36,761 bases of DNA, taken from positions 1 to 36,761 of the forward strand of contig QNDS01000004.1 in the NCBI GenBank assembly GCA_003644925.1. Reading direction: 5' to 3'. Below the pieces are notes generated by a model that was not told where the DNA came from, searched no databases, and was given only the letters and a program-made list of their open reading frames with translations. The stretch comes from Candidatus Fermentibacterota bacterium (GTDB taxonomy: Bacteria; Fermentibacterota; Fermentibacteria; Fermentibacterales; JCC-6). Shown here in pieces: positions 7,579-18,499 of the stretch. The position numbers and the translations under genes are program-made. Numbering within the stretch: position 1 is the first letter of the stretch; each line of letters opens with the position of its first letter.

Positions 7579-9375
7579 ATGAGATTGTTGATGTTAGTCG
7601 TATTCGCTCTTTTCTTTTCAGCCAGTGCGGAACTTATCTTCTATGATGACTTCGAGGATAATAACATCGGTGACTGGACATCTCATGGTCAGCCGGGAAC
7701 ATGGTGGGCTGTCGATGGCAAGGCACATGGTTCTACAAATTATAACTGGTCAGCGATATCACCTCCAGGTACTATTGTGCTGGAAAACTGTATAGTGGAA
7801 GCAAGCGGCACTGCATACCATACTGTGGCCCTTTTCTTCAGGCTTGATAACACGGATTCAGGTATAAATGCTACGGTATCACCGGATCATGATATTGCAG
7901 TCATAAGAACTGTTGTAAACGGTGTAGCCGGTGATGCTCTCGGTGCAATCTATCATGATTTCCCATCGGGAGTCTGGTATGACATCACCTTCTCTTGCAA
8001 TGGCGACTCTATCTTCTACGATATATACATCCCGTCAACTGGAGAACACTTCTCTCTTTCTGCTATCGATCCGAACCCGCATCCCGGGGAATGCGGTCTT
8101 GCCGTTGGTGATGAAGCGCATGGTCAGTACGAATGGTTCTCCGTATCCGAGTTCGTCGAATCCGGTGAACTTGTGCTGAATGGTCTTTCTACCGATGATG
8201 ATGACCAGGGGGGATCAAGCGGTAATGGTAACTGGGCGTTCGAGGCAGCAGAGGAGATCGAGTTTGGCGTAGAATTTCTTAATGCAGGCGAAGAGCCACT
8301 CATGAATACATTTGCGATACTCCAGTCACTGGATACGCGATTGATTGTATCCGAACCGGTTCAGGACTACGGAACCATTCCGGCAGGACAATCCTGCTGG
8401 AATCAGTATCCATTCCTGGTCTATGCATCTCCTGGAACACCTGAGGATGAAACCTATCCGTTCAGAATTAATATTTTCGCCGATGGCGGGTATTATGAGG
8501 ACCTGTATTTTGATCTTCCTCTGGGAGCTGGAATGTTCTGTGATGTGGAATCGGATACATCCCCATGGGCAATGACATTCATAGAAGCCGGCTGGCTGAA
8601 CAACTGGCATGTATCACCCCAGAGGAATCATACATCCGCTGGTTCCAATAGTTTTAAGTGTGGTGATACCGGTGCTGGTGATTATGACAATCACTTGTTT
8701 TGCGGTTTATCATCACCATGGTTCAACCTTCCTCTCGAAGGTAATCTGTCTTTCTGGATATGGATTGATGCTCAACTATACTCAACAGCCTATCAGGGTC
8801 TGGCGATCGATGGCGGCCTGGTTCAGCTGGGTCAATTCGACAACTGGCTTACTGTTGAGCCTTCTTCTGGTTATCCCTTTGAGATTGTTCAGCCTACTTC
8901 CGGGCCTTATGAACCCGGAACAGGTGTATTTTCAGGTTACCAGGGCTGGCATCTGGTGACGATTGATGTTCCTGTCGAGATAAAGGGTCCCCAGCAGCTA
9001 AGGTTCATTTTTGGAAGCGATAATGACGGTACGCGTGAGGGCTGGTATGTGGATGATATTCTCGTTACAGGTAATACAGGGGTTGAAGAGCCTCATTCCA
9101 GACCGGGATATCTGGAATCTATTTCAGTATATCCCAACCCATTCAGCGAATCCATATCAATCTCAGCGCAGACCGGTGATGATGGTGAGTATTCAATCAG
9201 AGTGTTCGACCTGAGCGGCAGACTTGTTTATGAGACATCGTTTTCAGGTTCAGGTACTACACAGGTATGGGGAGCTACCGATATGAACGGGCGAATTCTT
9301 CCAGCTGGAGTGTATACCATGCAGTTTGAAACCTCCGGGTGCTGTAGAAATATTCGCCTCGTAAAACTGTTCTGA
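7579..9375 (+). CDS. Secreted multidomain protein with type IX-like C-terminal sorting domain
   Basis: A 598-residue exported protein of unknown function. A signal peptide is clear (hydrophobic residues 3-14, likely cleavage after ASA at 17). Residues about 18-195 look like a concanavalin/LamG-type beta-sandwich starting IFYDDFEDNNIGDW. A segment around 205-315, opening with an acidic DDDDQGGSSGNGN stretch, resembles CARDB-like Ig modules. Residues about 325-500 look like a MAM/immune-inhibitor-A-like adhesion module (SFKCGDTG, GWYVDDILVTG). The last 85 or so residues carry the YPNPF motif, FDLSGRLVYE and LPAGVYTMQF, typical of type IX secretion type A sorting domains. No catalytic motif was recognised, so adhesion or polysaccharide binding is an inference. 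A perfect GGAGGT lies 6 bases before the ATG. Confidence 0.88.
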   Translation: MRLLMLVVFALFFSASAELIFYDDFEDNNIGDWTSHGQPGTWWAVDGKAHGSTNYNWSAISPPGTIVLENCIVEASGTAYHTVALFFRLDNTDSGINATVSPDHDIAVIRTVVNGVAGDALGAIYHDFPSGVWYDITFSCNGDSIFYDIYIPSTGEHFSLSAIDPNPHPGECGLAVGDEAHGQYEWFSVSEFVESGELVLNGLSTDDDDQGGSSGNGNWAFEAAEEIEFGVEFLNAGEEPLMNTFAILQSLDTRLIVSEPVQDYGTIPAGQSCWNQYPFLVYASPGTPEDETYPFRINIFADGGYYEDLYFDLPLGAGMFCDVESDTSPWAMTFIEAGWLNNWHVSPQRNHTSAGSNSFKCGDTGAGDYDNHLFCGLSSPWFNLPLEGNLSFWIWIDAQLYSTAYQGLAIDGGLVQLGQFDNWLTVEPSSGYPFEIVQPTSGPYEPGTGVFSGYQGWHLVTIDVPVEIKGPQQLRFIFGSDNDGTREGWYVDDILVTGNTGVEEPHSRPGYLESISVYPNPFSESISISAQTGDDGEYSIRVFDLSGRLVYETSFSGSGTTQVWGATDMNGRILPAGVYTMQFETSGCCRNIRLVKLF

Positions 9376-9388
9376 TCAGCGGATTAAT

Positions 9389-11491
9389 TCATCGTCCTCT
9401 GAATGCTGTCCAGAGGGTCTTCAGCAGGCTTGGAGGATGAAGCAGAATATTGGAGTAGGCCTGATTGGCAAGGGGGCATGCGCAGGAACCATGCCTGATG
9501 GAAGTTCTTATTTCCCTGGCTTTCTTCGAATTCCATATATCCTGAAAATCAGTATTATCATCCAGTTTACCCATCTGCCCTTTGTATGCAAGTACGGCAC
9601 ACGGCCAGATTCCTCCGTCGGAGTTGATATGCACGTTCATCAAACCTGCTGAACAGGGAATGACCTGTCTTTTCTCATTGAGTATTCTGACAACAAGATC
9701 ATAGTAGACAACCCTCAGGGCTGTTGTCATTCTGGGGAGAAGTTTCATATCCTTCATTTTCTCTACTACTGAATCCTTGAAGACATCCATTATTTTTTCA
9801 TAGCTGTCACTGTCCGGTGTTATACCTGAACCGAGATTGAAAAATTCCTCTCTCTCCTCGGCAATTTCGTTTATATAGGAATCAACTCCCAAACTCTTCG
9901 AGTATTCGATAATTTCTCCAAGATGAGCAGCGTTGTATTTGGATATTACCGTACCAACCCCAACATGGAGATTTTTGTGTTCTTCCTGCAGTTGCTTAAG
10001 CTGTTCCACCGTCTCAAGCAGTTTGTCGAAATTCCCCGGGATACCTCTGATCTCGTCATGAAGCTTGCCTATGCCGTCAAACGAGGGTTTGATAGTCAGA
10101 ACAGTTCCCGGAGCTTCCTTATCAATCACATTAAGAATCTCATCAGTCATCCGTATTATTCTGTCCGATGATATCGCGTTCGTTGGAATATGAATAACTG
10201 CTGGGGTCATAAACCTGCAGGCAAGCTTAATTATTTCAGGAAGATCGTCCCTCAGAAACGGCTCTCCCCCTGAAACGTTGAAGAAGTAGGTCCAGCCGAT
10301 GGATCGGAACAACCTTTCAATAGTGTTCATATCAAGATCATCATCGGAATCATGTTTCCAGATGAAGCACGTTTTGCATTTTGACTGACAACTTCTTGTA
10401 ACAGAAAATGTTACGTTAATAGGATTTGGTGCCTTGGCCAGTCCGTACATTGCCAGCTTACTTCTTATCACACTGCCGGTCAGATGGAAGATCTGCTCTA
10501 TATGGTTCATGGATTTCGTGAATCTGCGGCGGAGCGAACCGTATATTATTGCCTGAAGGGCGTACAATCCCTCAACGATCATCAGCATGACCCTTTGTCC
10601 AAGTGCAATTACAGTAGCGACTTCAACTCCGCCCCGGACAAAACTTGAAAGAAGAAGCCCCTGAACACCTTCCCTGATACCGATGCCTCCCGGTATGAAA
10701 ACCATGGCAAGCGCAATAAACCAGGAAACCGGTCCTGCAAGAAGGCAGATAGCTATCATTGCGAAGGGCTGATCCGGTTTCACTCCGAAACCGCGGAACC
10801 AGAAATAGAGAGCCATACTTCGAAGACTCCATGAAAGCAGATGATAGCCAACGAAAATTGCCTGATGCTTGTGTGAGATATGAGGAAGGCTGTCTATATC
10901 CGCGCCGAGTTTGTGACTGAGCTTATGGGTAATTCTTCTCTGGATTTTCGGTGCGAAGAGCATGATAACTCCCAGACCAGCTGAAATCCACAGGGCTATT
11001 ACTACGGGAAGAGGGACATTTGCCAGCCCGAGAAAGGGAAGGCCTATCAAAGCCATAATAGTCATGGCGACCATCATATATAGGTTTTCAAGAATGAATG
11101 CTGTTATAGCCTTTACGGGGCCAATACCATTTGCCTTAAGAAAAGTAAGCCTTCCAACAACCATCCAGAGTTTCCCCGGAACGTATTGGCCCATTTGCGT
11201 GATGTACCAGTTCCTTCTTACTTCACCCTTATCGATTTTTGGGATCTTCAAGGCATCAAGGATCTTTCGCCAGGCAGCGGGAGCGAAATAATAACCAAGC
11301 ATCAAAGAGAAAAAGGAAAGTGCGATCATTGGAAGGCTGGCGCTCTCCTTTGAAGTCTCCCAGAAACTAATAAGCCCGGGCTGCCATTTTGGCCAGAGTT
11401 CAAGTATAAAATATAGAATTGCTGTTATCAGGAGGATAATACCTCCCCATGTGGTAACTATATGAAATAACCTTTTTCGGTCTCTGGTCAT
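9389..11491 (-). CDS. Fusion of UPF0104/LPG-synthase-type membrane domain with radical SAM/SPASM-like enzyme
   Basis: One uninterrupted 700-residue frame joins two families. Residues 1 to about 325 form a polytopic membrane domain (about 8 helices) of the lysylphosphatidylglycerol-synthase TM/AglD family, with YVPGKLWMVVGR and the hallmark PGGIGIREG. After a basic linker, residues about 355-690 form a radical SAM domain: cluster motif CxxxCxxC at Cys368, Cys372 and Cys375, SGGEPF near 406-411, and a SPASM/twitch-like tail with Cys613, Cys631, Cys670 and Cys672 that could hold an auxiliary Fe-S cluster. It is the last gene of the 11-gene unit; its ATG overlaps the YfhO stop (ATGA). I infer a membrane-tethered enzyme acting on a lipid or lipid-linked glycan; substrate and reaction are unknown. 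Confidence 0.9.
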   Translation of the reverse strand: MTRDRKRLFHIVTTWGGIILLITAILYFILELWPKWQPGLISFWETSKESASLPMIALSFFSLMLGYYFAPAAWRKILDALKIPKIDKGEVRRNWYITQMGQYVPGKLWMVVGRLTFLKANGIGPVKAITAFILENLYMMVAMTIMALIGLPFLGLANVPLPVVIALWISAGLGVIMLFAPKIQRRITHKLSHKLGADIDSLPHISHKHQAIFVGYHLLSWSLRSMALYFWFRGFGVKPDQPFAMIAICLLAGPVSWFIALAMVFIPGGIGIREGVQGLLLSSFVRGGVEVATVIALGQRVMLMIVEGLYALQAIIYGSLRRRFTKSMNHIEQIFHLTGSVIRSKLAMYGLAKAPNPINVTFSVTRSCQSKCKTCFIWKHDSDDDLDMNTIERLFRSIGWTYFFNVSGGEPFLRDDLPEIIKLACRFMTPAVIHIPTNAISSDRIIRMTDEILNVIDKEAPGTVLTIKPSFDGIGKLHDEIRGIPGNFDKLLETVEQLKQLQEEHKNLHVGVGTVISKYNAAHLGEIIEYSKSLGVDSYINEIAEEREEFFNLGSGITPDSDSYEKIMDVFKDSVVEKMKDMKLLPRMTTALRVVYYDLVVRILNEKRQVIPCSAGLMNVHINSDGGIWPCAVLAYKGQMGKLDDNTDFQDIWNSKKAREIRTSIRHGSCACPLANQAYSNILLHPPSLLKTLWTAFRGR

Positions 11492-13824
11492 TCTGCTGCT
11501 TTCTTTCTCTGTTTTCCTAACCTGATATCAAACACGATAATAAGACATGCGGACAGTAAACCCACGATTGATAATATAAGACCGGTTGTGACATCGGATG
11601 AATCGAAAATGTATTCTACTTCATGTTGCCCCGAAGGCACAATAACACCCCTTTGCCAGTGATTTGACTGTATTACTGAGGCAGGTTCTCCATCTATGAA
11701 TACTGTCCACCTCGGATACCACGTGTCGGCAAGTATGAGAAGGCCATCCTCCGGATTGTCAGTCCGGATTGTAACCCTGTGAGGTTCGTCAATCACTATT
11801 GAAGCTTCCGCTTGCTCAGTGTTGAGTATTTCAGGCAGTTCCGGACTCTCGTAAAGGATCGTGATCTCGCGTGGATTAATTCCGCTTGACAGGAGGTTCA
11901 GACACTGATTCTCTGAGAGTTCCATCCAGGATTCAGCAAACCATATCCTTGGAAGGGATTCAACTGGAATGAGAGCTTCAAGTGTATCAACATATGATGG
12001 ATCTGAAGTGGTAGTCTGCTCGATAAGATAGTCTCTGAATTGTGCGTATGTGAGGTATCCATCCTGGGTCTGGAGGACCGAGAAGGCAGTCTGGTGGATT
12101 GCTGCGATTCCACCGGATGACATCATAGTCTGAAGATCGTCAACAACAGCGGTTTTGGCTGCATGGTAACCGCTCACCGATCGGATATGCAAAGGAACGA
12201 ACTCGTTGCCGCCGGGTAGAAGCCTTCCTGATCCTGTCATGACAGTCAGATCACTGTCATGCATAAAGAGAGCATCGACGCTCGTTTCGTTCAGATAGAA
12301 CTGAAAATCTCTGTCCAGCGGGATTACTTCCACTGCAATCAGAATGGAAAGAGCTGCCCCTGGTATTAAAATACCTGCTTTGCCTCTGTTTCTGAAATAG
12401 ATTAAACCAGCAAGTATAAGAGCAGCTGCAGCAGCCTTCAGGAAATCCGGTGATGCCATGTCAACTCTTCTGTTTACTACAGCCGCGTATCCTGAAGCCT
12501 GAGGATTTCCCACTCTGGTCCACCATCCGGATTGCAGACCTGGCAGTATAGAATCGGCAAGCAGGAAGATCAATATGCAGACGCCTGCAAAAACAGAGAT
12601 TCCAATCAGAAACTTTCTTCCTGAAAAACGTTCGCTCCTGAAAATTGTATCGAAACCGGGTCCTGCAGCCAGAGCGATAGCAGAGGTTGTCAGAAATGCT
12701 GCCATATGAGGAGCTCTCAGTTTACGTAGGATCGGCACGATGCTGTAAAGGACTTTGAACACAGGTGTGTAACCGCCCCATGATATTAGCAATCCTGCCA
12801 CCATGATACCCAGCAGGGGCCATCTGTACTTTTTCGAGAAACCAAGGAATGCAGCAAATGCCAGCAGAAAGACCAGTATACCGGTGAACTCACTGCTGAG
12901 CCGCAGTCCGAGTCTACCAAAATACAGAGGAACTCCGGAGACTGTACTGTCTGGAAATCCGTGACGGTAACCGAAAAGGTGCGGGAAAATCATCGTAAGT
13001 GTTTCTTCAGGAGGTAGCGAATAGCTTGAAGCCTGGTCGAGGGACAGGTCACTTCCTCTTGTAGAGTAATGTGAGAAATTATATCCAGGCAGGAGCTGAA
13101 CGGCTCCTATTGCTGCTGCAAGGAGCAGGATAACCGTTATTCCGATTGCTGCGCTTCCAAGGTTCTTCCATCTGGATCCTCGATTAGAGATAACCCGGAA
13201 ACCGAGCCAGATAATCGCAGCTCCCACTGAATACAAAACCATCTGGGGATGGCTGGCTAGGGTCTGCATACCTATTGCTATGCCGCCGATTGCGATAAAT
13301 TTTCCTCTCCTTGTCTGCATCCACATTTCGCATGAATACAGCAGCAGCGGTAGAAAGCTCCAGCAGATAATCTTACTGCCGTGTCCCGCGTAGAACAGCG
13401 TATTTGACCAGGCTGTAACAGCGTAAGCAATGGAACCCGCAATTCTGCCCCACCTGCTTACTCCAATTGATCCGAGGAAAAGCCATGCGAATATTCCACC
13501 GAGGAGCATCTGAATGGGAAAGAGAAAACGAACCATACCCTCAACACCCGTAATCAGTAGAAGCAGACCTCGAACCGGGTAGAAGACTGGTGCAGAGAAT
13601 GATGAGTAAAAAGGAATTCCGCAGAATACGTATGGATTCCAGTGGGGAAGACTGCCCTCCTGCAGAGATTCTGCAGTGTATGTGAAGAATGGATATCCCT
13701 GGCTTACCGTATCGCTGAGCTCTCCACCCGGCAGTTTTCCGGATGTAAACACAGTTGAATACGTTATAATTACCGCAGGAATCAAGAAAAGCAGGTATCC
13801 GGTTCTTTTCGGAAATGAAATCAC
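11488..13824 (-). CDS. YfhO-family GT-C-type membrane glycosyltransferase
   Basis: A 778-residue protein with a dozen or so membrane helices and a large external domain (about 490-740) before a last helix near 748-768. It matches the YfhO family: an N-terminal acidic loop (GGELSDTVSQGYPFF), SLPHWNPYVFCGIPFY, and the C-terminal SVSGYHAAKT and WYPRWTVFIDGEPA segments. In Bacillus and Staphylococcus, YfhO works with the GT2 CsbB, moving a sugar from undecaprenyl phosphate onto lipoteichoic acid outside the cell. A CsbB-like GT2 is encoded upstream in this unit, so a similar outward-facing transfer onto an envelope acceptor is a reasonable inference. The GTG start overlaps the previous stop (GTGA). 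Confidence 0.88.
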   Translation of the reverse strand: MISFPKRTGYLLFLIPAVIITYSTVFTSGKLPGGELSDTVSQGYPFFTYTAESLQEGSLPHWNPYVFCGIPFYSSFSAPVFYPVRGLLLLITGVEGMVRFLFPIQMLLGGIFAWLFLGSIGVSRWGRIAGSIAYAVTAWSNTLFYAGHGSKIICWSFLPLLLYSCEMWMQTRRGKFIAIGGIAIGMQTLASHPQMVLYSVGAAIIWLGFRVISNRGSRWKNLGSAAIGITVILLLAAAIGAVQLLPGYNFSHYSTRGSDLSLDQASSYSLPPEETLTMIFPHLFGYRHGFPDSTVSGVPLYFGRLGLRLSSEFTGILVFLLAFAAFLGFSKKYRWPLLGIMVAGLLISWGGYTPVFKVLYSIVPILRKLRAPHMAAFLTTSAIALAAGPGFDTIFRSERFSGRKFLIGISVFAGVCILIFLLADSILPGLQSGWWTRVGNPQASGYAAVVNRRVDMASPDFLKAAAAALILAGLIYFRNRGKAGILIPGAALSILIAVEVIPLDRDFQFYLNETSVDALFMHDSDLTVMTGSGRLLPGGNEFVPLHIRSVSGYHAAKTAVVDDLQTMMSSGGIAAIHQTAFSVLQTQDGYLTYAQFRDYLIEQTTTSDPSYVDTLEALIPVESLPRIWFAESWMELSENQCLNLLSSGINPREITILYESPELPEILNTEQAEASIVIDEPHRVTIRTDNPEDGLLILADTWYPRWTVFIDGEPASVIQSNHWQRGVIVPSGQHEVEYIFDSSDVTTGLILSIVGLLSACLIIVFDIRLGKQRKKAAE

Positions 13825-14765
13825 AGCGGCTTCCCCTCTCCGAAGAGCTTAAGTTTTCCAGTAGATACAAGAGCAAAGACAACCTCTATTATAGATAATA
13901 TCAAACGTTGTCCGACTATGACAGCAAGAACAGGACCCGCAGCACCAGAAGGAGCTACAAGGGCTACCGCAGCCGCTTCTCTGATACCGATTCCTCCGGG
14001 AACCAGAAAAACTATATATCCAGCCAGCCATGCTAGCGGTGCAGCTGCGCAGCAGAGAAGGAGACTGATATCTGAAACACCGAAGCCCTTCAACCAGAGG
14101 AAAAGTGCAAGTCCGCGAAACCACCATAGGCTCGAGTAAAAGATAAGAAGCTTAATAGAATCGATTAATCCCGGCAAAGGTAATTCCTCAGGAATTCGAC
14201 CATGTTTTAACCTGTACAGCCATTTCTGGATGGGAGTAAGAAAAGGAATCACAAGAAGTGAGAATCCCGCTGCCAATACCGCATACTTCAAGCCCGAATG
14301 CGAAAAGATCGCATTACCGGATATGATAACTGGTATCATTGCAGTCAGACCTGCTCCAGCAGCTGTATACAGCAGCTCGAGAAATGGAACGCTTGTAGCC
14401 CTGAATCCGGCAAGACCCCGGGATTTCAGAAAGGCAGCCCTACCGGCGAAAAGCCATACTTTACCCGGGATATACCTCCCAAGTTGAGACATGAACCAGG
14501 CAGCCCGTAGTTCCTTAGATACGGTTTTACTTCCTGCGGCATGTGACAGAACTATCCAACCTGCCGGGATGATGAAGTAGGAGAGTCCAAGCAGTATGGC
14601 CGAGGTGCAGATAAGAAACCAATCAAAGTGCCAGCTGAACCTGCTTATCTGCTCAAACCAGTTCTCAGCATTGACAGTAATGATCCATGCGGCGGCTGCA
14701 AGGAGAAGTACTGCACCTGCTCTGACCAGCCACTTCACTCGGGTTTTCATACCAGAAGTAATCAT
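13821..14765 (-). CDS. UPF0104/LPG-synthase-TM family membrane protein
   Basis: A 314-residue polytopic membrane protein (about 8 helices) of the lysylphosphatidylglycerol-synthase TM/AglD family, without any soluble catalytic domain. It shares with the N-terminal half of the radical SAM fusion two genes downstream the segments YIPGKVWLFAGR, a LFLWLKGFGV-type helix and VPGGIGIREA, so the two are paralogues. Some relatives transfer or flip lipids, and AglD adds a dolichol-linked sugar in archaea; others are of unknown role. In this unit it is plausibly involved in moving or processing a lipid-linked glycan. Its ATG overlaps the epimerase stop and its stop overlaps the YfhO GTG. Confidence 0.88.
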   Translation of the reverse strand: MITSGMKTRVKWLVRAGAVLLLAAAAWIITVNAENWFEQISRFSWHFDWFLICTSAILLGLSYFIIPAGWIVLSHAAGSKTVSKELRAAWFMSQLGRYIPGKVWLFAGRAAFLKSRGLAGFRATSVPFLELLYTAAGAGLTAMIPVIISGNAIFSHSGLKYAVLAAGFSLLVIPFLTPIQKWLYRLKHGRIPEELPLPGLIDSIKLLIFYSSLWWFRGLALFLWLKGFGVSDISLLLCCAAAPLAWLAGYIVFLVPGGIGIREAAAVALVAPSGAAGPVLAVIVGQRLILSIIEVVFALVSTGKLKLFGEGKPL

Positions 14766-15664
14766 CCTGGTAGAATCCTGTTCTCCCGATACCAGGACAC
14801 AGTTTTATCTACGCCTTTCTTCACGTCATATTCCGGATAGAAACCCGCCTTCTCGGCTCTGGATATTGAAACGTAATGATCTGTACCAAAGAGCCTGAAT
14901 TTACTTTCGGAAAGTGCTCGGGGGCAAAGTGGACCAAGTTTCAGAGCAAGGAAAAAGAAAAGTCTGGGAACCGGTAGTATTTTAAGTTTAATACCCATTG
15001 ATAATGCTGTTTTCAATATGAAATCTCTGAATTTGAGAACTTCAGGGCCACCGATATTGTATAATCCTCCGTTAAGACAACCACCGGGAAGTGAAGCGTT
15101 AACAGCTCTGCATACATCAGCGCAGTATGTTGGTCGAATTCTGGCACCATTGAATCCGATCAATGGAAACCAACCTTTCTGAACCTGTTTAAAGAGTTCG
15201 AGTTTGTGCATATCACCGGGGCCGTATACAAAATCGGGGCGAAGAACAGTCAGTAGATGAGATGGCAGTGAATCATGCTCACGCAGACTGATCTCACCTT
15301 TCATTTTGGATAACTCGTATTCACCCCACGGATTGTACTCCAGATCTTCTGAAGCGTTAGCCAGCAAGCCAGAAACCCCTGGAGTACTGAGATGTATTAA
15401 GTGAATACTTTTCTTCGTGCAGAAATCAGCAAGCATTTCAGGTAGAACAGCGTTTGATTGAGTTAACTCAGATGTATTTACATTTGGTGATCCAAGTCTT
15501 CCAGCCGAGTTCACGATCACTTCACTGTTATCTGGTATTCCATCCGGAGATAGATCTCCGTTCTTAGATCTGTTATGCTCAATTATCTCATGCCCTTTGT
15601 ATGAAAGGTAATTTGAAATGCATGATCCTATAAATCCGCCAGCTCCTGTAATGAAAATTCTCAT
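14762..15664 (-). CDS. NAD-dependent epimerase/dehydratase (extended SDR)
   Basis: A 300-residue extended short-chain dehydrogenase/reductase. The Rossmann motif GxxGxxG is at 7-13 (TGAGGFIG) and the catalytic YxxxK at Tyr116 and Lys120 (GEYELSK), with HLSTPG supplying the upstream Ser/Thr. Later LRPDFVYGPGD and RPTYCADVCRAV fit nucleotide-sugar epimerases or reductases. The substrate cannot be assigned; in this setting a nucleotide sugar or lipid-linked sugar is likely. The ATG overlaps the GT4 stop (ATGA), and its own stop overlaps the start of the UPF0104 gene. Confidence 0.9.
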   Translation of the reverse strand: MRIFITGAGGFIGSCISNYLSYKGHEIIEHNRSKNGDLSPDGIPDNSEVIVNSAGRLGSPNVNTSELTQSNAVLPEMLADFCTKKSIHLIHLSTPGVSGLLANASEDLEYNPWGEYELSKMKGEISLREHDSLPSHLLTVLRPDFVYGPGDMHKLELFKQVQKGWFPLIGFNGARIRPTYCADVCRAVNASLPGGCLNGGLYNIGGPEVLKFRDFILKTALSMGIKLKILPVPRLFFFLALKLGPLCPRALSESKFRLFGTDHYVSISRAEKAGFYPEYDVKKGVDKTVSWYRENRILPG

Positions 15665-16773
15665 AGCAGATGTTCCATTAGTTCTGCACCATAAGTTTCC
15701 CAGCTGAATGAGGCTGCTTTCCTTCTTATCCTGTTTTCTGTGTCTGGATCGGAAACAAGCTTAAAGGCAGCAATGATTGATTCTGCCAGTTTTGATGGTG
15801 AGAAGGGAGGCGCTAGAAATCCTGTGGAACCGGGGTCAACCAGTTCCGAGAGACCACCTGTATCCGTGAGGACAAGAATCCGGTCGAACGAAAGAGCGAT
15901 CTGGGCTACTCCGCTCTGAGTGGCATTCCGGTAGGGTAGGGCGACAATATCTGCAGCATTGAAATACATGGATACGTCCTCATCAGGAACGAATTTGTCT
16001 ATCCACCTGATTCTCCTGGAAAGCTGAAGAGAAGTAATGGTTTCCAATATCTCGTTTCTATCCACATAGGATTCACCGACAATTAGAAGTGAGATGTTAT
16101 CCGGAAGCAAGTTCATTGCTCTTACAAGATCCGGAACACCCTTATAGGACCTTACCAGGCCAAAGAATAGAACAAGATTTGTATTACTTGAGTAGCCAAG
16201 TCGTTTCCTTGCATCCTCCCTGGAAATTTCCGGATTTCTGTACTGATCGTAAATTGGATGGTAGAGTTTCAGAAGTTCCGAACTCATATCAAGTGTCTCG
16301 GCTTTCTTCAGGTCCGATTCACTGTGAATGACCATAAGATTCATTCTGTTGAGGAATGCCTTTGATAGTTTTCCCGAAAATGGAAATGATTCATGGGGAA
16401 TAACATTATGACAGACTGCAGCGGATGGAATTCTACTCGGCAGCGATGCGAGAAGTGATGCTGCAAAAAATGGATGCCACCATTGAATGATTAAACGGCT
16501 GAATTCTGAATTCTCAATGTATTTCCTGGAAGAAATCCAATTCACAGGATTGCATGAATCAATAAGGTTGATGGCATTTAAGGAGCTTGGCTCCTTTTCC
16601 GGCTCAAGCTGTGACGTTCCTGGGAATAGAATGGATGGGTACAGTCTTCTGTATGATATCGGAACGAAGGTATGTTCCGGATAGCATTTGGTAAGGGTTT
16701 CGTACAATCTTGCTGTGAACTGGGCTATACCCCCTCTGAAGGGGGGAAAGGGTCCAACAAGGGCTATCTTCAT
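15661..16773 (-). CDS. Glycosyltransferase family 4 (GT-B fold)
   Basis: A 370-residue retaining-type GT-B glycosyltransferase. It starts MKIALVGPFPPFRGGIAQF, the glycine-rich acceptor loop of GT4 enzymes. The C-terminal half has LFFGLVRSYKGVPDLVRAM, ADIVALPYRNATQSGVAQIAL and TDTGGLSELV, the nucleotide-sugar-binding region. It should act in the cytoplasm or at the inner face of the membrane. Donor and acceptor are unknown. The ATG overlaps the GT2 stop and the stop overlaps the epimerase start, both as ATGA. Confidence 0.92.
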   Translation of the reverse strand: MKIALVGPFPPFRGGIAQFTARLYETLTKCYPEHTFVPISYRRLYPSILFPGTSQLEPEKEPSSLNAINLIDSCNPVNWISSRKYIENSEFSRLIIQWWHPFFAASLLASLPSRIPSAAVCHNVIPHESFPFSGKLSKAFLNRMNLMVIHSESDLKKAETLDMSSELLKLYHPIYDQYRNPEISREDARKRLGYSSNTNLVLFFGLVRSYKGVPDLVRAMNLLPDNISLLIVGESYVDRNEILETITSLQLSRRIRWIDKFVPDEDVSMYFNAADIVALPYRNATQSGVAQIALSFDRILVLTDTGGLSELVDPGSTGFLAPPFSPSKLAESIIAAFKLVSDPDTENRIRRKAASFSWETYGAELMEHLL

Positions 16774-17746: not shown

Positions 17747-18499
17747 TTATTCCCTGCATTCGGGACTGTTGGAGGAATACTCAAGAAGTTCTTCTGCTTC
17801 CACACCATCTCTCATGTGGAAGTAGGTGAATCTTGTCAGCCAGTCTCCAAGAGAAACATAAGTACTTTCATCAGTCCTGATAAGAGTATCGAGGTGTGTA
17901 TGACCGGTGATGATAATATCAATACCTTCATCGAATTTCTCATTGATCCATTTCTGCATCCCGGACGGTATTCTATCAAGATCACGCCTGAGAATTCTCT
18001 TGCTGGTATCTGAGAAATATCTCGCGAGAAATGTACCTAGATCCGGATGAAGAAGATAGAAGAGGAACCTGCTTATCGTCGATCTGAGGACCGGCTTCAT
18101 CAGCTTATATCCGATATCACCCGGTCCTAGGCCGTCGCCATGAGAAAGAAGTACCTTTTTACCATCGAAATCCAGTATCAGATAATCATCCGGATGGAGT
18201 ACGGCTTCAGTCGATTCAACGAAATGTTTTCCGACCCAGAAGTCGTGATTTCCCGGAATGAAATGGAATACCCAGCCCTTATCCGTCAGTTTCCTTATTG
18301 AGGAGATACATCTTTCGTACCCGGAGGGGATTACAGTTCTGTATTCGAACCAGAAATCGAAGAGATCACCCAGTATCCAGAGCTCCCCCGGATCGAATGA
18401 ATCATGGATGTAATCAAGAAAGGAAATGAGCGCTTCCCGACCGGGATGAAACTCCGGTTCCGGAAAAAGATGGACGTCACTCAGGAAGAATCTATCCAT
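17747..18499 (-). CDS. lpxH: UDP-2,3-diacylglucosamine pyrophosphohydrolase, Bacteroidetes-type LpxH
   Basis: A 250-residue calcineurin-like phosphoesterase that should cleave UDP-2,3-diacylglucosamine to lipid X in lipid A synthesis. All metal motifs are present: DVH (Asp8, His10), GDLFD (Asp45, Asp48), GNHD (84-86), SHGDG (His120, Asp122) and GHTH (His200, His202). The segments GDLFDFWFEY, HGDGLGPGD and GYKLMKP resemble the LpxH subtype I know from Bacteroidetes. If so, the cell makes lipid A or a related saccharolipid, which implies an outer membrane. A related substrate within this operon's own pathway remains possible. The ATG shares a base with the preceding stop (TAATG). Confidence 0.87.
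   Translation of the reverse strand: MDRFFLSDVHLFPEPEFHPGREALISFLDYIHDSFDPGELWILGDLFDFWFEYRTVIPSGYERCISSIRKLTDKGWVFHFIPGNHDFWVGKHFVESTEAVLHPDDYLILDFDGKKVLLSHGDGLGPGDIGYKLMKPVLRSTISRFLFYLLHPDLGTFLARYFSDTSKRILRRDLDRIPSGMQKWINEKFDEGIDIIITGHTHLDTLIRTDESTYVSLGDWLTRFTYFHMRDGVEAEELLEYSSNSPECRE

Follow-up and report, generated by a model that had tools for sequence, protein, structure and literature searches.

The window (the whole stretch of 36,761 nucleotides analysed) carries on its minus strand an operon of seven genes arranged head to tail, coding in this order for an LpxH-like phosphoesterase, a GT2 and a GT4 glycosyltransferase, an SDR epimerase, a free UPF0104 protein, a YfhO-like protein, and, as the product of the last gene, the fusion protein X (Table 1). 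The last five gene joints are four-base overlaps of stop and start codons (ATGA or GTGA), including the ATGA in which the YfhO-like gene stops and fusion X starts. The gene order is constant across the taxonomic order save for a few upstream replacements, and no GtrA-type protein was seen among the products of the operon. Next to fusion X lies a convergent gene (positions 7579-9375) that only some of the relatives possess; its product has a sorting domain for Por secretion (type IX) at the C-terminus.

Table 1. Positions of the operon genes and of the domains and motif of fusion protein X in the window.
Feature	Positions	Strand	Basis or composition
LpxH-like UDP-2,3-diacylglucosamine diphosphatase	17747..18499	minus	NF003743 9e-29
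GT2, polyprenyl-phosphate type (ArnC/PgfS-like), C-terminal membrane helices	16770..17759	minus	NF007986, NF047588
GT4 glycosyltransferase, allele unusually unlike that of close relatives	15661..16773	minus	PF13692 2.1e-19
SDR-type NDP-sugar epimerase/dehydratase	14762..15664	minus	PF01370 3.6e-14
Free UPF0104 protein J, paralogue of the fusion membrane domain	13821..14765	minus	PF03706 9.8e-6, below cut-off
Divergent YfhO-type GT-C membrane protein, 778 aa	11488..13824	minus	family PF09586 matches
Fusion protein X, 700 aa	9389..11491	minus	UPF0104/LPG_synthase_TM membrane domain + radical SAM + Twitch
N-terminal UPF0104 (PF03706) membrane domain, residues 1-327 (about)	10511..11491	minus	Pfam + model
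PGGIGIREG motif, residues 267-275	10667..10693	minus	alignment
Radical SAM core, residues 363-515	9947..10405	minus	PF04055; CX3CX2C at 368/372/375, GGEP at 408-411
Twitch domain, residues 613-672	9476..9655	minus	C613-X17-C631-X38-C670-X-C672; PF13186

Fusion X is encoded by one open frame (ATG at 11491, stop at 9389), and three Pfam models match it above their cut-offs: LPG_synthase_TM (PF03706) at residues 49-294 (2.9e-17, with 63.5 bits where the cut-off is 33.4), Radical_SAM (PF04055) at residues 363-515 (1.2e-10, above the gathering cut-off), and SPASM (PF13186) at residues 613-672 (9.9e-9, likewise above the gathering cut-off). The claim of the first-pass annotation that a single chain joins a UPF0104 domain to a radical SAM domain is thus borne out, and this architecture can be taken as practically certain. 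Based on its score and on the P-G-G-I/L-G-x-x-E motif at residues 267-274, the N-terminal part belongs to the PF03706/UPF0104 family; the PGGIGIREG motif and Cys368/372/375 had both been read exactly. Glu274 within this motif is invariant in all of the 17 UPF0104 proteins aligned (17/17), and Arg300 across the fused set. With respect to the enzyme part, the motif, the PF04055 match, and the fold matches agree that fusion X is a member of the radical SAM superfamily, and Cys368/372/375 and GGEP408-411 are invariant or nearly so in relatives. A positively charged stretch, LRRRFTK, follows the last helix of the membrane domain and, together with the need of an iron-sulfur enzyme for the cytosol, would place the C-terminus inside.

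A total of nine cysteines are present in fusion X (residues 249, 368, 372, 375, 425, 613, 631, 670, and 672), among which C368/372/375 and C613/C631/C670/C672 are invariant both in the fused proteins and in a 30-sequence alignment set that takes in free relatives from other phyla. The full form of SPASM contains seven cysteines and two auxiliary clusters, while Twitch is its truncated form with up to four cysteines and one cluster (PMC6231123, PMC9012708). The Pfam SPASM model covers only the first half of the seven-cysteine domain on fusion X, and a full SPASM was ruled out because the domain contains only four cysteines, none being found past C672 in the whole protein sequence. The four C-terminal cysteines suspected earlier of holding an auxiliary cluster are therefore present and might do so, but as a Twitch and not as a seven-cysteine SPASM: by cysteine count this part matches Twitch with one predicted auxiliary cluster, a reading that follows from the closeness of C613-X17-C631-X38-CXC to the pattern of SkfB, C333-X17-C351-X33-CXC (C385XC387; PMC6231123).

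Full-length fusions with 48-95% identity were found in about 35 of the 42 Fermentibacterota genomes, all of one order and recorded under the names Candidatus Aegiribacteria, Candidatus Sabulitectum, and Fermentibacteria, and in these relatives no stop codon separates the two domains. In several further genomes (G003, G032, G035, and G040), the fusion is interrupted by contig ends, gaps, or frameshifts. An artefact of assembly or annotation that merged two genes, raised in the first-pass annotation as one way in which the fusion could fall, might draw on the two relatives with separate domains, but it is refuted by the intact frames in about 35 independent metagenome-assembled genomes and retains a negligible probability. 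The other way, that no relatives of like architecture exist, fails on the same genomes. The radical-SAM part stands unfused at the same operon place in two genomes only (G004/L056 and G036/L062), both of which retain the free UPF0104 gene, and the tether is thus not strictly needed. Since L056 nests among the fused sequences in the tree, its membrane domain was lost. No fusion of UPF0104 to radical SAM was detected in about 385 genomes of other phyla, a survey of mostly one or a few genomes per family in which scoring was limited, for most genomes, to the two best candidates. Nor did 17 genomes from four small phyla, home to the closest free relatives, yield such a fusion. One candidate for a second such fusion, in G277, was rejected, as its radical SAM domain is joined to a flavin/NAD reductase domain instead. 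Within the genomes surveyed, the architecture is seen in one order alone. In one locus of the order (L038:2975-3229), the YfhO-like gene and the intact fusion are separated by an 85-residue remnant that resembles fusion residues 6-90 (72%), the trace of a tandem duplication.

The free UPF0104 protein J is 31% identical to the N-terminal domain of fusion X. The fused domains group in a single clade (support 100/99) of the UPF0104 domain tree, with the operon's own free UPF0104 as sister group, and the joint clade (99/97, counting in the free copy L072) stands apart from the other UPF0104 proteins of these genomes. A test of the fused and free proteins as a clade, as they had first been named, gave rejection (p 0.0006), apparently because L072, which falls inside, had been mislabelled as 'other'. 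Because the fused and free domains are sister clades, the membrane domain of the fusion most likely arose by duplication of UPF0104 within the operon, as judged from the tree.

When the fusion is modelled in full (pLDDT 78), a helical domain extends to about residue 323 and is followed by a linker helix and then by the enzyme, and short half-helices (H88-101/H107-120 and H272-284) are included as expected for an MprF-type domain. Foldseek with this model gave radical-SAM enzymes and then, lower in the list, MprF (7duw, 7f47, and 9j8q; 3.6e-4 to 9e-4), with TM-scores that are low, the full-length model having been the query. A sequence profile of the UPF0104 domain against the PDB did not find MprF and gave only low-value matches to designed helical proteins. 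MprF likewise consists of an N-terminal PF03706-type membrane domain fused to a cytoplasmic lipid-modifying enzyme; in RtMprF, the membrane domain contains two half-helix pairs, with the first subdomain at residues 24-325, and is fused to the cytoplasmic synthase (PMC8131360). The gate of RtMprF is formed by Glu280 and Arg304, Glu280 being located five residues past Gly275, and G269..E274 (G-x4-E) with Arg300 in the fusion resembles this Gly275-Glu280-Arg304 set by motif spacing only. The catalytic part, however, is a radical SAM/Twitch enzyme in place of the double-GNAT aminoacyltransferase of MprF, and subdomain 2 (TM9-14, PMC8131360) has no counterpart in the fusion, whose membrane domain stops close to residue 323. 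In place of the YRXXY motif of MprF the fusion reads LGQRVML, and fusion X as an MprF proper was ruled out by its radical SAM C-terminus and its lack of subdomain 2. AglD-type proteins carry a GT2 fused to a PF03706 domain and are similar in joining this domain to an enzyme of lipid-linked sugar metabolism, but differ in domain order and enzyme type.

The radical-SAM part modelled alone (pLDDT 91) matched anSME, SkfB, SuiB, BlsE, DesII, and BtrN by Foldseek. The substrates of these enzymes are peptides in some cases and sugars or sugar-like molecules in others, and the fold therefore does not name the substrate. SkfB and BtrN share one auxiliary cluster site with the fusion (Foldseek 6efn, 2.7e-11, and 4m7t, 4.2e-6), but they differ from it in sequence (about 13-16% identity), in partner genes, and in the membrane tether of the fusion. 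The radical-SAM family of the fusion is without any NCBIfam equivalog match, the best being PTO1314 (64.8 against 306 bits) and the others, among the matches listed, staying far below cut-off; membership in the Tes, NirJ, PqqE, mycofactocin, and PTO1314 families was rejected on these scores.

The GT2 of the operon matched NF007986 (ArnC; 2.5e-50, 171 against 529 bits) and NF047588 (PgfS; 1.6e-30, 106 against 500 bits), both below the equivalog cut-offs, and is thus ArnC/PgfS-like by family resemblance only, without equivalog membership. ArnC and PgfS are enzymes that load undecaprenyl phosphate. The YfhO model PF09586 was matched by eight of the 14 aligned family members (best 1.8e-21), the copy of the window having no Pfam match, and the PgfM1 model NF047589 matched the window copy with an E-value of 0.006. 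The LpxH-like gene is the sole LpxH-like match in this genome, in which an LpxC-like gene is also present, and lipid A is therefore a possible acceptor. GT-A, flippase, and GT-C proteins work together in known systems of transmembrane glycosylation, with YfhO as the GT-C component (PMC8035078). The combination of GT2 and YfhO-type GT-C in the operon is similar to CsbB-GtcA-YfhO, to PgfS-PgfM1 of S. mutans, and to the ArnC-ArnT relay, but is different from these GT-A/flippase/GT-C systems with respect to its two UPF0104 domains instead of a GtrA-type protein and the addition of a radical-SAM step, a GT4, an epimerase, and an LpxH-like gene.

Two of the sugar genes vary between close relatives. 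In L036, the operon neighbours are 93-97% identical to those of the window, whereas the GT4 is only 59% and the epimerase 75% identical; the GT4 of the window is 76% identical to that of L039, to which the GT4s of L035-L037 are 56-58% identical. This mosaic at 14762-16773 suggests allele exchange of glycan-determining genes, a pattern typical of surface-glycan loci, and the operon, with the fusion among its best conserved genes, looks built for a variable surface sugar.

Free orthologues of the enzyme part occur in other phyla, the closest being 42-49% identical. In one family (G110, G251, and G380), the parts of the fusion lie side by side but unfused, in the gene order metallophosphoesterase, GT2, radical SAM, DUF362, methyltransferase-like (named by eye, with no Pfam match), UPF0104, epimerase, ArnC-like GT2, GT4, and GT2. 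This linkage across phyla with UPF0104, GT2, GT4, and epimerase argues most strongly for assigning the radical-SAM step to the assembly of a lipid-linked glycan. Outside the order, UPF0104 is nearby in four, and GT4 in six, of the 20 free-relative loci.

Several single loci add variants of these arrangements. A conserved cassette of another phylum (L117, L118, and L124) runs RibH-NusB-phosphoesterase-GT2-radical SAM-DUF362-methyltransferase-like-UPF0104-epimerase-GT2-GT4-GT2, and we know of no name for its larger pathway. At L114:8902-11239 and L121:7963-10295, the radical-SAM relative adjoins a protein that scores above the TIGR02032 geranylgeranyl reductase cut-off. The free relative at L113:9124-11127 carries a fused C-terminal FAD_binding_6/NAD_binding_1 reductase, possibly as its own electron supply. 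The head-to-tail overlap of UPF0104 and YfhO-like genes known from the window recurs in another phylum at L070:783-4158, with no radical-SAM gene at this locus.

Taken together, we propose that fusion X is the Twitch radical-SAM enzyme, tethered to the membrane, of a cassette for polyprenyl-phosphate glycans, in which a lipid-linked sugar would be modified and then flipped (probability roughly 0.45). The lipid-linked glycan context is indicated by the presence in the operon of a polyprenyl-phosphate-type GT2, a YfhO-type GT-C, a second UPF0104, a GT4, and an epimerase, and membership in a lipid-linked surface-glycan pathway is highly probable. This setting gives partial support to the suggestion of the first-pass annotation that the tethered enzyme would work on a membrane lipid or lipid-linked sugar at the inner face. 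In the proposed scheme, the ArnC/PgfS-like GT2, judging from its family, would charge undecaprenyl phosphate with a sugar at the inner leaflet. The UPF0104 domain would hold the radical-SAM/Twitch domain at the cytoplasmic face, where cleavage of SAM and abstraction of a hydrogen atom could lead to oxidation, epimerisation, deoxygenation, or a similar reaction of the lipid-linked sugar; that such a sugar is the direct substrate has nearly even odds. By analogy with MprF, of which the homologous domain moves aminoacyl-phospholipid, the product might then be passed to the outer leaflet by the UPF0104 domain, by its free paralogue, or by both; flipping by the fusion's own domain is a tentative assignment with the odds somewhat against it. 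Finally, the YfhO-type GT-C would deliver the sugar to an acceptor on the outside, for which lipid A or some other surface glycan is a possibility. The whole would be a relay like that of MprF or of ArnC-ArnD-flippase-ArnT, except that the modifying domain is a radical enzyme.

The domains with their invariant cysteines, the fold matches of the radical-SAM part and those to MprF, the constant operon, the family matches of GT2 and YfhO, the UPF0104 paralogy, the unfused cassettes, the overlap of UPF0104 and YfhO in L070, and the variation of GT4 and epimerase are all consistent with this role. Against it count the unfused radical-SAM part in G004 and G036 and the presence of UPF0104 near just 4/20 of the outside relatives, and we know of no transport activity for UPF0104 proteins of this subgroup. 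The strictest version, a two-in-one enzyme of which the radical-SAM/Twitch part alters a polyprenyl-phosphate-linked sugar and the own MprF-type domain flips the product, with the free relatives acting likewise in the glycan cassettes of other phyla, is doubtful as a whole.

The same evidence may be read with the UPF0104 domain as a mere membrane anchor or scaffold, the enzyme acting on a soluble NDP-sugar before GT2 and GT4 and the fusion serving to co-localise the pathway. The free versions that occupy the fusion's place in the operons of G004 and G036 agree with this, as do the sequence or fold matches to BlsE, DesII, and BtrN, which act on small sugar-like molecules, the sugar-preparing epimerase of the operon, and the weaker conservation of the membrane domain (36% identity between the window and L064, against 62% for the enzyme). 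A pure anchor, however, would have no need of the conserved Glu274 and PGGIG, and an entire flippase-like domain was duplicated for the fusion; we regard the anchor as an unlikely but serious alternative.

The substrate could also be a lipid chain, either the carrier's isoprenoid or an acyl chain in a phospholipid or in lipid A, as with the tetraether synthase Tes. Tes (7tol) is the best PDB sequence match of the order-level profile (4.1e-7), NF045702 matches at 4.3e-12, and the LpxH-like gene lies in the operon, but the profile of the wider family scores SkfB and MoaA better (Tes 1.3e-6), the Tes score is far below cut-off (45 against 450 bits), and sugar-handling genes dominate the operon. 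Modification of a lipid chain is thus improbable; it is kept alive by the neighbours of the geranylgeranyl-reductase family in L114 and L121, which would be more easily reconciled with a lipid chain than with a sugar as substrate. Many SPASM/Twitch enzymes modify peptides or proteins, and the best fold matches include anSME, SkfB, and SuiB, with many NCBIfam matches to peptide maturases, all under cut-off. A RiPP or sulfatase-type maturase is nevertheless very unlikely, since the partner genes are glycosyltransferases in several phyla, and the operon, in which genes overlap by a few bases, contains no conserved small ORF; a RiPP maturase in particular was rejected because no precursor-like small gene is conserved there.

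The combination of UPF0104 with radical SAM is real and conserved, and it is apparently undescribed: in the part of the literature that was searched, no report was found of a UPF0104- or MprF-type fusion to radical SAM, or of radical-SAM chemistry on a lipid-linked sugar coupled to transport, nor do we know of any description of the latter. The parts and the logic of the fusion resemble known systems such as MprF and the ArnC-ArnT relay, and the combination points to radical chemistry directly on a membrane-bound sugar or lipid. Lipid-linked sugars are a common currency of bacterial envelope assembly, and the general role of UPF0104 proteins is unsettled. As a Rosetta stone, the fusion ties a multi-phylum radical-SAM family to UPF0104 proteins and to YfhO-type transferases, and this link opens to concrete experiments a function that cannot be read from the sequence by itself. 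If the two-in-one version is true, radical chemistry would be covalently coupled to lipid translocation.
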